DNA of 64,000 nt from Prochlorococcus marinus CUG1416. Its GTDB lineage: Bacteria > Cyanobacteriota > Cyanobacteriia > PCC-6307 > Cyanobiaceae. Below the pieces are notes generated by a model that was not told the DNA's origin, did not search any database, and worked only from the letters and a program-made list of their open reading frames with translations. Both the position numbers and the translations under genes were made by a program. This document shows positions 12,623 to 17,096 of this stretch, in pieces (position 1 is the first letter of the stretch; the number at the start of each line of letters is the position of its first letter). The stretch is from NCBI RefSeq assembly GCF_017695965.1, contig NZ_JAAORM010000005.1:186001-250000 (forward strand), written 5' to 3'.

Positions 12623-14062
12623 CTATTTTACTTGAGAAGCCGCTTGTTTATATGCGACCTCAACTACTTCACTAAGAGTGGGATGAGTATGTACTTCTGT
12701 AGATAATTCAATTACATCTTGATTCCTTGAAATGGCATTCGAAATTTCTTGAATCAAATCAGCTGCATGTAACCCAAAAATATGAGCACCTAATACTTTT
12801 CCATTATCTTTATTGAAAATCAACTTGAGCATTCCATCACTCTCCAATTCAGCCAATGCTTTTGAATTAGCCTTAAAGAAACTTTTGACAACTCCCAAAG
12901 TAAAATTTTCTTTTGCCGATATTTCTTTAGCTTCAGCTTCAGAGAGACCAACTGAACTTATCTCAGGATGAGTAAATGTTGCCGCAGGGATACTCTTATA
13001 ATTAATTTCGAAGTTACCACCGCAAATATTATCAACAGCAATAGTACCTTGCGCTGCGGCTGTGTGGGCAAGCATTAGTTTACCAGTTACATCTCCAACA
13101 GCCCAAATGTTAGGTATTATTTTCTCACCATTTTTAACCCTCATTTGATCATCTATAGGAATGAAGCCTTTTACTGTTTCAATCCCAACAGATTCAAGAT
13201 TTAAGTTATTACTATTAGGACTTCTACCAGTCGCAACTAGTACAGCGTCAACTTCTAAAGTTTCTATAACTTCTTTAGATTCTGCATCCGTCAGTTCTAT
13301 TTTAACAGGACATCCAGGTGTTATTTTTGTCGCAAAGACATTTGATTTTGTATCTATATCTCTTGATTGAATAAGGTTCTTCTTAGCAATTTTTGCAATG
13401 TCTGGATCAAATGTTGGCATAATATTCTCCAAAGCCTCGATCATGGTAACTTCACAACCTAGCGCGGTATAAACATCAGCAAATTCCAATCCTATATATC
13501 CGCTTCCAATAATAGCTATCCATCTTGGTAGCCACTCAAGTTTAACCGCATCATCACTAGTAAATACAGTCCTATTATCCAAAGAAATTCCACGAGGAAC
13601 AAAAGGAGAAGAACCAGTTGCTATAACAACATTCTTACAAGTGAAAATTTTATCAATTCCGTTTTTATCTCTCACACCCACTTTTTGATTTCCTTGAAGT
13701 CTTCCAATGCCCAAAATAATTTCAACTCCACTCCTTTTGAGAGTTTTTGTTAAATTTTCTCTAACATTTAAAACTAAATTATTTGCATGATCTGCAATTT
13801 TTGATCTCTCAAACCTTACTGGTGACGCATGAATACCAAATTTAGCTAAATGTTCATAATCAGCAATTTCTCTAACTTTTCCACTTGCAGCCAAAAGAGC
13901 TTTAGAGGGGACACAACCCTTGTTAACACAAGTGCCTCCCATATCAGAAGATTCTACTATTGCGACTTTTAGTCCCTTAGCAGCAGCATGTTTAGCCGCA
14001 TCAAAACCTCCATACCCTGCTCCTATTACGATTAAATCAAAATCAAAACTTGAATCAGTCAC
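12623..14062 (-). CDS. lpdA: Dihydrolipoyl dehydrogenase (E3)
   Basis: Reoxidises dihydrolipoamide of the pyruvate dehydrogenase E2 component and reduces NAD. The 479-residue flavoprotein shows the FAD loop GAGYGGFDAA, the redox disulfide GGTCVNKGC (C45, C50), an NAD-binding GSGYIGLEFADV and the C-terminal His-Glu pair in HTHPTLSEV (H460, E465). It starts with GTG; the GTGA overlaps the stop of trmH by four bases, so the two are translationally coupled. pdhA, the E1 alpha partner, is at 3053-4090. Confidence 0.95.
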   Translation of the reverse strand: MTDSSFDFDLIVIGAGYGGFDAAKHAAAKGLKVAIVESSDMGGTCVNKGCVPSKALLAASGKVREIADYEHLAKFGIHASPVRFERSKIADHANNLVLNVRENLTKTLKRSGVEIILGIGRLQGNQKVGVRDKNGIDKIFTCKNVVIATGSSPFVPRGISLDNRTVFTSDDAVKLEWLPRWIAIIGSGYIGLEFADVYTALGCEVTMIEALENIMPTFDPDIAKIAKKNLIQSRDIDTKSNVFATKITPGCPVKIELTDAESKEVIETLEVDAVLVATGRSPNSNNLNLESVGIETVKGFIPIDDQMRVKNGEKIIPNIWAVGDVTGKLMLAHTAAAQGTIAVDNICGGNFEINYKSIPAATFTHPEISSVGLSEAEAKEISAKENFTLGVVKSFFKANSKALAELESDGMLKLIFNKDNGKVLGAHIFGLHAADLIQEISNAISRNQDVIELSTEVHTHPTLSEVVEVAYKQAASQVK

Positions 14063-14933
14063 TTTTTATCTCTGTATTTAGAAGTGTATGCGACTCTTTT
14101 TCGTTCTAATAATAATGGAACTGCAACACAAGCCACATTCAATGATTCTACAAGCTCACTATGCGGAATTGAAATTGTTTCATTAAAAGCTTCTTGAATT
14201 TTTTTATGAATTCCTTCACCTTCATTACCCAAAATCAATGCTGTACGTTTAGTCCAATCAATTTCCCAGTAGGGCTTTGAAGATTTTTTCTTGTGACTAC
14301 TAGTAGAAAATATCTTAAACCCAACATTTGACAATTCACATAAAGAATTTAATAAAGAATTTATTATTTCTTCTTCATTACCCTCAAATCTTAGAAATGG
14401 GAGGTGAAAGACGGCACCAGATGATGCTCTTAATACCTTTTGATTTAATGGGTGCGCGCCTCCAGCTAAAAAAATTGAATTGACCCCAGCAGCTAGAGCC
14501 GTTCTAAAAAGATTTCCCATATTTCCAGGATCTTGAATCCTATCAAGAACAAGAACCAAATCATCTTTACTATTAAATTGATAATTAGGTATTGATGAGA
14601 TTTCGACTAATGCTGCGATGCCATCTGGATTAATTGTTGAAATTGCAGAAGCCAAAACCTCATCTGAGACAATAGTTATTAATGATTGATCAAATTTTTT
14701 GCTAAGACTTTGATTCTTTTTAAGCCATTTATCAGTAACTAAAAGTTTGGAGGGAGCATTTCCAGAATTCAACAATTCTTCTATGAGATGAGTACCCTCT
14801 ATGCAAAAAAAGTTTTTATCTTTGCGAGAAGATCCGCTTTTAAATGATCTAAATCTTTTAACTAGATTATTGTTTTTACTAGTTATTTTTAAAAAAGTAT
14901 TTTCTATGAGGAATTTTAAAATTTTTTTATCAT
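14059..14933 (-). CDS. TrmH/SpoU-family RNA 2'-O-methyltransferase, frame-shifted or non-canonical start
   Basis: Methylates ribose 2'-OH in rRNA or tRNA; the exact target is unknown. The SPOUT domain shows LDRIQDPGNMGNLFRTALAA, ALILGNEGEGI and IPHSELVESLNVACV. The first canonical start in this frame is TTG 14775, but the frame is open and clearly coding for about 50 residues upstream, including CIEGTHLIEELL, the substrate-binding-domain signature. No ATG, GTG or TTG occurs there. The ATG at 14933-14931 is one frame off: it reads M-I-K-K across seven A (14928-14922), and a -1 slip or one extra A joins it to ILKFLIEN in frame. I give 14933 as the likely full start. See findings. Confidence 0.82.
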
Positions 14934-15095
14934 TTACATTTTAATTTCCATTAAAGTATTGAACAATATTTTTTAAATTTTAATTTCCCAAAAATTGAAT
15001 AATACATTTTTACTTTTAATTAATATTCAGGACGTTACATAGGGTGGACTTAAGAATATTAGTTTGTCATTATAAATCTAATAAATTAAATCTTA

Positions 15096-16466
15096 ATGAT
15101 TTGCGTAAGCAAAAAGAAGTCATATCTTAAATCGCAAAATTTAAAGATTTTTGGCCAAGGTAAATTAAATGGAAGAGTTAAAATAAGTGGTGCGAAAAAT
15201 TCAGCCTTGGTTTTGCTGGCGGCATCATTACTAACTAATGAAAGAATAATTCTTGAGAATGTTCCCCGTCTTACTGATATTGAAAAAATGGGAAATATTC
15301 TTAAGAATTTAGGAGTTAATTTGGTAGATAAAAACAATAAAATAGAGATAGATTCAAAAAATATTTCCGTTAAAGAACTTCCTTATGAACTTGTTAATGG
15401 ACTAAGAGCTAGTTTCTTTTGTATTGGAGCTCTATTAAGTAAATTTGGAGAGGCTAAAGTCCCCTTACCTGGAGGTTGCAATATTGGTTCAAGGCCAATT
15501 GATGAGCACATTAATGGACTTAAAGCATTAGGTGCAGAAATTCTCATTGAAGAAGAAATTGTCAAGGCAAAAATAAAAGGAAAGAAAAATAAACTTTATG
15601 GTACTGATATCAAATTAAAGTGTCCAAGCGTAGGGGCAACTGAAACTTTAATAATGGCTGCATCTCTAGCCGAGGGACGGACTACTATTGAGAATGCTGC
15701 AAGAGAGCCCGAAATTCAGGATTTATGTCAAATGCTTAATAAAATGGGAGCAAAAATTTACGACGCTGGTAAAGAAAAAATAATTATTGATGGTGTTAAT
15801 AAACTTGGTGGTTGTACGCATAAAGTAATTCCAGACAGAATAGAAGCTGGAACTTTTCTAATAGCTGCTGCTGCAACTTCCTCCTCCATTACAATTTCTC
15901 CTGTTATTCCTATACATCTTGAAGCTGTTACGAATAAGCTTCAAGAGAGTGGGAGTAAAATTACTATTAAAGGTAATTCAATTAAAATCAAGGGTAAAGA
16001 GATTAAAGGAGTAGACATTGATACAGCCCCCTACCCAGGATTTCCTACTGATTTGCAGGCACCATTTACAGCTCTAATGACGATCGCCAATGGTGAATCC
16101 AGGATAACTGAAACAATTTTCGAAAACAGAATGAATCATATTCATTTACTAAAGAAAATGGGTGCAAGTATAAAATTAAATAAAAATGTAGCTTATATCA
16201 AAGGTGTTAAAACAATTAAGGGGATGGATCTAGTTGGCTCAGATCTAAGGTCATCAGCCGCATTAATAATTGCTGGTATTATCGCTAAAGGTATTAGTAA
16301 GGTCTATGGTTTAGAGCATTTGGATAGAGGTTATGAAAATTTTGAATCAAAGCTAAAAATGTTGGGTATTAAAATAGCGAGAGAGTTTAATAAAAGAACT
16401 CTTACTCGGAGTGAATGTAAAATTGATTCTGAACCTAAAGAAATTATAGATTTAAGAGTTGCTTAG
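15096..16466 (+). CDS. murA: UDP-N-acetylglucosamine 1-carboxyvinyltransferase MurA
   Basis: First committed step of peptidoglycan synthesis: transfers enolpyruvate from PEP to UDP-GlcNAc. The 456-residue protein has the substrate Lys-Asn in ISGAKNSAL (K35, N36), the catalytic Cys in LPGGCNIGSRPID (C128), and the loops GATETLIMAASL and YPGFPTDLQAP. A C-terminal tail of about 30 residues extends past the usual end. It is the only gene of its pathway step here; ddl lies 7 kb downstream. Confidence 0.95.
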   Translation: MICVSKKKSYLKSQNLKIFGQGKLNGRVKISGAKNSALVLLAASLLTNERIILENVPRLTDIEKMGNILKNLGVNLVDKNNKIEIDSKNISVKELPYELVNGLRASFFCIGALLSKFGEAKVPLPGGCNIGSRPIDEHINGLKALGAEILIEEEIVKAKIKGKKNKLYGTDIKLKCPSVGATETLIMAASLAEGRTTIENAAREPEIQDLCQMLNKMGAKIYDAGKEKIIIDGVNKLGGCTHKVIPDRIEAGTFLIAAAATSSSITISPVIPIHLEAVTNKLQESGSKITIKGNSIKIKGKEIKGVDIDTAPYPGFPTDLQAPFTALMTIANGESRITETIFENRMNHIHLLKKMGASIKLNKNVAYIKGVKTIKGMDLVGSDLRSSAALIIAGIIAKGISKVYGLEHLDRGYENFESKLKMLGIKIAREFNKRTLTRSECKIDSEPKEIIDLRVA

Positions 16467-17009: not shown

Positions 17010-17091
17010 GGGAGCGTGGTGGAATTGGTAGACGCACCGCACTCAAAATGCGGCACCTTCGGGTATGTCGGTTCAAGTCCGACCGCTCCCA
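17010..17091 (+). tRNA. tRNA-Leu (anticodon CAA)
   Basis: An 82-base class II tRNA. The acceptor stem GGGAGCG pairs with CGCTCCC (17084-17090), with A as discriminator. The anticodon stem CCGCA/TGCGG holds the loop CTCAAAA, so the anticodon is CAA, reading UUG. A variable arm (CACCTTCGGGTATG) and the T loop GTTCAAGTC follow. CCA is not encoded. The argD ATG begins five bases after the discriminator. Confidence 0.95.
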
Positions 17092-17096
17092 CTTTG

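Follow-up and report, generated by a model that had tools for sequence, protein, structure and literature searches.

The window, a stretch of 64,000 nucleotides from Prochlorococcus marinus CUG1416, carries on its minus strand a TrmH/SpoU-family reading frame (14940–14059) that stays open for 293 codons after a TAA at 14943–14941. The earliest ATG, GTG, or TTG in this frame is TTG 14775–14773, which is reached only after 55 codons. An ATG at 14933–14931 lies one frame off and reads ATG ATA AAA AAA TTT TAA; this mini-frame (MIKKF*; 14916–14933, minus strand) sits close to the predicted transcription start and is not conserved in the genus comparison described below. Within it is a run of seven A (A7; 14928–14922, minus strand), whose A_AAA_AAA is so phased that a −1 slip would lead into the TrmH frame. 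An earlier note on this DNA had reported the absence of an ordinary start before TTG 14775 and had placed the ATG and the A7 run at these positions, all of which we confirmed.

The surroundings of the gene can be summarized briefly. A putative murA-like ORF (15096–16466) lies on the opposite strand and is divergently oriented, so there is no same-strand upstream gene at hand for coupling. At the other end, the next ORF is listed from a GTG that shares bases with the TGA stop of the TrmH gene (GTGA, window 14059–14062), an arrangement that suggests coupling between the two. We also observed that a tRNA-Leu(CAA) gene (17010–17092) overlaps the 5' end of an ORF listed from GTG 17016 (putative aminotransferase-like), and this ORF therefore probably starts further downstream.

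The product has three Pfam domains (PF00588, PF22435, and PF08032; MRM3/YsgA-like domains), and the SpoU_methylase domain PF00588 scored 112.1 bits against a cut-off of 29.7, placing the protein in the SpoU/TrmH family. A narrower assignment did not follow: the RlmB equivalog TIGR00186 was not reached (110.9 versus 160.15 bits), and neither was the TrmH equivalog cut-off. Relatives in the PDB were 7qiu, 1ipa, and 5kzk, with mitochondrial rRNA methyltransferase 3 among the matches. RlmP/YsgA and MRM3 are Gm2553 methyltransferases that act on 23S rRNA G2553; they have PF22435 and PF00588 in common with this protein, a likeness that concerns domains only. In the 292-residue reading of the frame, the PF22435 substrate-binding match begins at residue 23 and the alignment with the solved homologue 1ipa at residue 17, whereas TTG 14775 is residue 55. 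Since both begin before the TTG and cover the codons in question, these codons are, judged by domain and structure alignment, real coding sequence, as the earlier note had held.

To place this in context, we surveyed start offsets across 464 of the 1,672 kb of this genome (the window and a further 400-kb sample), taking the 350 greedy ORFs that were 150 codons or longer. The first canonical start usually lay near the beginning of the frame, at a median offset of four codons, so that the long offset of the TrmH gene is more than chance would give. Only five of the 350 had an offset of at least 50 codons, the TrmH gene among them; the other four, to which we return below, were a methylpurine-DNA glycosylase, a PgeF/YfiH-type gene, CrtR, and CobS.

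We compared the 5' region of the gene across loci gathered by whole-genome and contig searches, in which some genomes are represented more than once. The gene was recovered from 280 of 282 loci, the other two (L031 and L032) being paralogues. The genus set comprised 156 loci at ≥60% identity (named single-cell contigs were assigned by similarity) and contained 127 distinct 5' regions, in which codon conservation sets in at ATA 14907 and continues downstream; the sequence upstream is not conserved. The codon aligned with ATA 14907–14905 was ATA in 125, ATT in one, and ACA in one of the 127, so that 126 of 127 carry AUU, AUC, or AUA (collectively AUH) at this place. The exception, L070, has CTG ACA where others have CTC ATA. 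This column held three codon types, against seven to 17 in each of the 12 preceding columns. In-frame stops occurred in nine of these 12 columns, including two codons before ATA in seven sequences. Past the ATA, codons vary partly by synonymous change (TTT/TTC in column 4, TTA/CTA/TTG in column 5); 123 of the 127 sequences retain the ATA of the ITS motif, and several codons further on do not vary at all. The near-invariance of the first ATA thus proves little by itself, because the ITS ATA and later codons are equally kept. The argument for an AUA start, as drawn from these alignments, is the onset of conservation and not the invariance of the codon.

No canonical in-frame codon was present upstream of the ATA in 120 of the 127 sequences, the isolates MIT 9201 and MIT 9302 (L061 and L099) among them; the remaining seven did have one. 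We found no Shine-Dalgarno match before the ATA in any of the 127 genus sequences, and predicted RNA folding of the start region was no better than that of shuffled sequences (z = −0.23).

The segment upstream of the ATA looks like a promoter and leader and not like coding sequence, given its codon variety, in-frame stops, frame-breaking lengths, and promoter-like boxes. On the minus strand, a −10-like hexamer (TAAAAT; 14938–14943) follows, at a spacer of 17, a −35-like hexamer (TTGTTC, TTGATC in most relatives; 14961–14966), both recognized by consensus match. Such a −35/−10-like pair was present in 125 of 127 sequences, compared with a mean of three and a maximum of nine of 127 in a base-shuffled control; a generic promoter scan missed the pair that conservation reveals. 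The predicted leader between the −10 hexamer and the AUA (14908–14937, minus strand) undergoes frame-breaking length changes among relatives: the distance from −10 to ATA is 30 nt in most sequences (99 of 125), and in 25 of 125 it departs from 30 by a non-multiple of 3. An Rfam scan of 13800–15300 returned a single match, far below its gathering score.

Related genera showed where starts of this kind occur and where they do not. In the outgroup, an ATG, GTG, or TTG stood two codons or less from the LTS motif in 20 of 20 loci (the best 20 of about 100 matches). The sister genus g83 has ATT (28) or ATC (1) eight codons before ITS in 29 of 29 loci, every time behind a Shine-Dalgarno sequence (GAGG). 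Of these 29, 27 also have a TTG directly before ITS, and four have one two codons upstream of the ATT; codon −3 is Ser in all 29, encoded by four different codons, which argues that translation begins before the TTG adjoining ITS and that the stretch after the ATT is coding. The sister genus g38 has AUH at the matching place in 10 of 11 loci (ATT in five, ATC in four, ATA in one; the remaining locus has GTG), with a Shine-Dalgarno sequence before all 10. Three of the 11 also have an upstream TTG with a Shine-Dalgarno sequence, and eight have a TTG before ITS. In both sister genera, the AUH codon lies one codon further from the ITS motif than the ATA of the window's genus.

Across 23 other loci representing 22 genera (including one from g83, one from g32, and g79 twice), AUH occupied position −8 in 11, of which 10 had a Shine-Dalgarno sequence, in contrast to the 0 of 127 in the window's genus. 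With one g38 locus added (24 loci, 23 family genera), AUH at −8 was seen in 12 of 24 loci against 2.9 expected at random positions (P = 5e-5; none of 20,000 draws reached 12), a position that was picked post hoc among 14 possible ones. In the more distant genera g32 and g33, AUH at −8 was found in 0 of 30 and one of 30 loci, respectively, and, on the sequences compared, the AUH rule is not family-wide. A canonical start with a Shine-Dalgarno sequence was present in five of 30 g32 and 10 of 30 g33 loci; 26 of the 60 (L212–L241 and L253–L282) had neither a canonical start nor a Shine-Dalgarno sequence, and others had canonical starts. The 5' ends of the g32 and g33 orthologues seem to overlap the upstream gene.

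We then turned to the four other ORFs with long offsets, in all of which the match to the protein family starts upstream of any canonical codon. In crtR (beta-carotene hydroxylase; L338:10534–11559, minus strand; NF045688 at 469 bits, just under the cut-off of 475), the first canonical codon is codon 100, and the first ATG of this genome falls after the HDACH motif, which we take to be catalytic. Among the best 30 loci from 54 genomes, a single column held ATT in 29 and ATC in one, preceded in 26 of 30 by an in-frame stop two or five codons upstream. In the same 30, a canonical codon occurred upstream in one (L359) and the first one downstream came 59–98 codons later; no Shine-Dalgarno sequence preceded the AUH in 29. 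We found a single crtR match in this genome. For strain PCC 9511, zeaxanthin is reported as a major carotenoid and crtR as expressed (PMC3441193); combined with the single match here, this implies that the long form of CrtR should be made.

The pgeF/yfiH gene (L350:14108–14899, minus strand; TIGR00726 above cut-off) has its first canonical codon at 107, and its start region in this genome reads GGAGGGAGCT-ATT. The best 30 loci from 51 genomes had ATT in 28, ATC in one, and ATA in one, with a Shine-Dalgarno match before the AUH in all 30; an in-frame upstream TTG was present in three of them (L397, L400, and L413), and the first canonical codon downstream came 28–104 codons later. The crtR and pgeF sets represent the less divergent members of the genus. 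The remaining two genes were considered in this genome only. Methylpurine-DNA glycosylase (mpg; L338:9477–10064, minus strand; PF02245, with TIGR00567 above cut-off) contains not a single ATG, GTG, or TTG in its 195-codon frame, and its opening, TGA AAA ATA GAA AAA, resembles the ATA GAA AAT of the TrmH gene. In cobS (L340:2273–3076, minus strand; PF02654, under the TIGR00317 cut-off), the first canonical codon is codon 86, the CobS match runs from residue 27, before that codon, and ATT and ATC are start candidates. Judged from their alignments, AUU, AUC, or AUA also appears to be the start codon of crtR and pgeF in this genus, and the best reading of the comparison is that AUH starts are common to a small set of genes.

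These observations can be weighed against several other ways of supplying the missing start. Programmed −1 frameshifting is known from dnaX-type sites, and the earlier note had put forward a slip of this kind at the A7 run; more generally, translation would enter from an upstream ATG or TTG in another frame through an A/T-rich heptamer. In this genome A_AAA_AAA is indeed correctly phased, 85 of the 127 relatives have a canonical leader start in the −1 frame, and in 63 of those 85 an X_XXY_YYZ heptamer stands in phase, 55 times as AAATTTT, a raw count in A/T-rich DNA. We regard these −1 routes as a partial result for a slip within the closer relatives. In the other sequences, however, there is no leader start in 25, a +1 route in 11, and an in-frame start in six of the 127, and among 12 divergent members (63%–77% identity), 11 have no leader start and one has it in frame, so that none needs a −1 shift. 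The combination of ATG and A7 is found in this genome alone (one of 127); when the A run was counted across homologues, as the earlier note had proposed, the longest run here was two to five in 126 of 127 sequences and seven only in this genome. Leader lengths differ by amounts that are not whole codons, whereas the frame from the ATA on remains open, and two sister genera have a Shine-Dalgarno sequence and AUH in place of the slip arrangement. Although dnaX-type sites and this locus both have an in-phase slippery heptamer, the TrmH relatives have no common upstream start or frame, and the 127 sequences lack the hallmark of programmed −1 frameshifting, namely a start, an overlap, and a slippery site that are all conserved in a single phase. 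A slip as the ordinary route to this protein is quite improbable, and the claim in the earlier note is not borne out, with frames of leader starts that drift or starts that are missing altogether. The earlier note had also named an artefact in the homopolymer. There is a homopolymer at the site, seven A long as assembled here, but 120 of the 127 sequences, from isolates and single cells alike, lack a start in the same way while the frame is kept open, so sequence error does not account for the missing start; we consider the probability of an error or a decayed gene to be close to negligible.

A shorter protein starting at TTG 14775 would dispense with unusual initiation, and this is the first canonical codon in the frame of this genome. 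In 112 of the 127 relatives a canonical codon stands at this place (107 TTG and five ATG), and in 102 it is the earliest one downstream of the ATA. A start there would, on the other hand, yield a product shorter than its homologues by dropping 44 codons (the ATA included) that are conserved as protein and lie in the substrate-binding domain, and in 11 sequences the place is TTA, a plain Leu codon. The same cut applied to crtR or mpg would discard much of the match to the family or leave the gene with no start, and we judge this reading highly improbable. More room is left, though it too is unlikely, for a non-canonical start at a neighboring codon, either the ATA within the ITS motif or the CTC or ACT that precedes the proposed start. 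L070, with its CTG ACA, and the retention of the ITS ATA would fit such a start; against it, the codon preceding the ATA takes seven forms, and the codons leading from ATA to ITS show conservation, in part through synonymous changes. The earlier note had offered a non-canonical ATT start as a fourth option, and of this the kind of start agrees with the reading we favor; the codon does not, since the conserved one is ATA 14907–14905.

We therefore favor translation of the TrmH gene from AUA 14907–14905 with no frameshift, a case similar in kind to infC, and assign this reading a probability of roughly 0.77 on comparative sequence evidence. The proposed start codon (14905–14907, minus strand) is suggested by column conservation in the genus and by AUH with a Shine-Dalgarno sequence in the sister genera. 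The putative RNA 2'-O-methyltransferase would then span 282 residues from AUA to TGA (14059–14907, minus strand), in agreement with its Pfam domains, its PDB relatives, and codon conservation from 14907. With AUH-type starts in close relatives and in at least two other conserved genes, a ribosome slip is probably not needed.

Under AUA initiation, transcription would start from the promoter just upstream and the AUA would lie ∼23 nt into the message. The fMet-tRNA would pair with the first two bases of AUA and be mismatched at the third, as it is at the AUU of E. coli infC. The window's genus would keep AUA with no Shine-Dalgarno sequence, and its sister genera AUU, AUC, or AUA behind one. AUH starts are normally weak, and the likely outcome would thus be a low, initiation-factor-sensitive output of an RNA-modifying enzyme. 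The lack of a Shine-Dalgarno sequence in the genus, for the TrmH gene as for 29 of 30 crtR loci, suggests that these particular starts would be weak.

Two candidate explanations for the AUH habit itself were set aside. A special initiator tRNA seems not to be involved: the anticodon stem of candidate L446 is the ordinary GGG/CCC (this covers 30 of 37 tRNA matches, apart from L451, a third possible CAU tRNA). Autoregulation by IF3, considered by analogy, met with a canonical infC start in all 33 loci examined (ATG in 28 and TTG in two of 30 family loci; ATG in three of three genus loci). With an ordinary-looking initiator tRNA candidate and a canonical infC, neither explains the habit. A tentative and rather doubtful extension is that the TrmH methyltransferase, crtR, pgeF, and probably mpg and cobS form a regulon, co-set by initiation fidelity, for example the IF3-to-ribosome ratio, with no transcription factor.

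AUH starts have been textbook curiosities tied to E. coli infC (IF3) and pcnB, both of which start at AUU. The TrmH gene resembles these two in having an AUH codon as the proposed natural start of a conserved gene; it differs in encoding an RNA methyltransferase, in using AUA and not AUU, in lacking a Shine-Dalgarno sequence in the genus, and in that control by IF3 is hypothetical here. AUU, CUG, and AUC are reported to serve as start codons across prokaryotes with varying frequency (PMC9845219). AUH starts are known in kind; among the openly licensed papers listed by our searches, no title or abstract opening described them in Prochlorococcus, and neither a genus-wide case in this enzyme family nor several in one genome came to light, which is weak evidence for novelty.

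If true, the genus-wide AUA reading, taken together with AUH in sister genera and in crtR (zeaxanthin synthesis) and pgeF, means that gene callers limited to ATG, GTG, and TTG truncate or miss real genes in an organism that ranks among the most abundant in the ocean. What looks like a frameshift may then turn out to be a start assigned to the wrong codon. More broadly, the AUH genes would offer a natural set with which to study how weak start codons are tolerated or exploited by bacteria.
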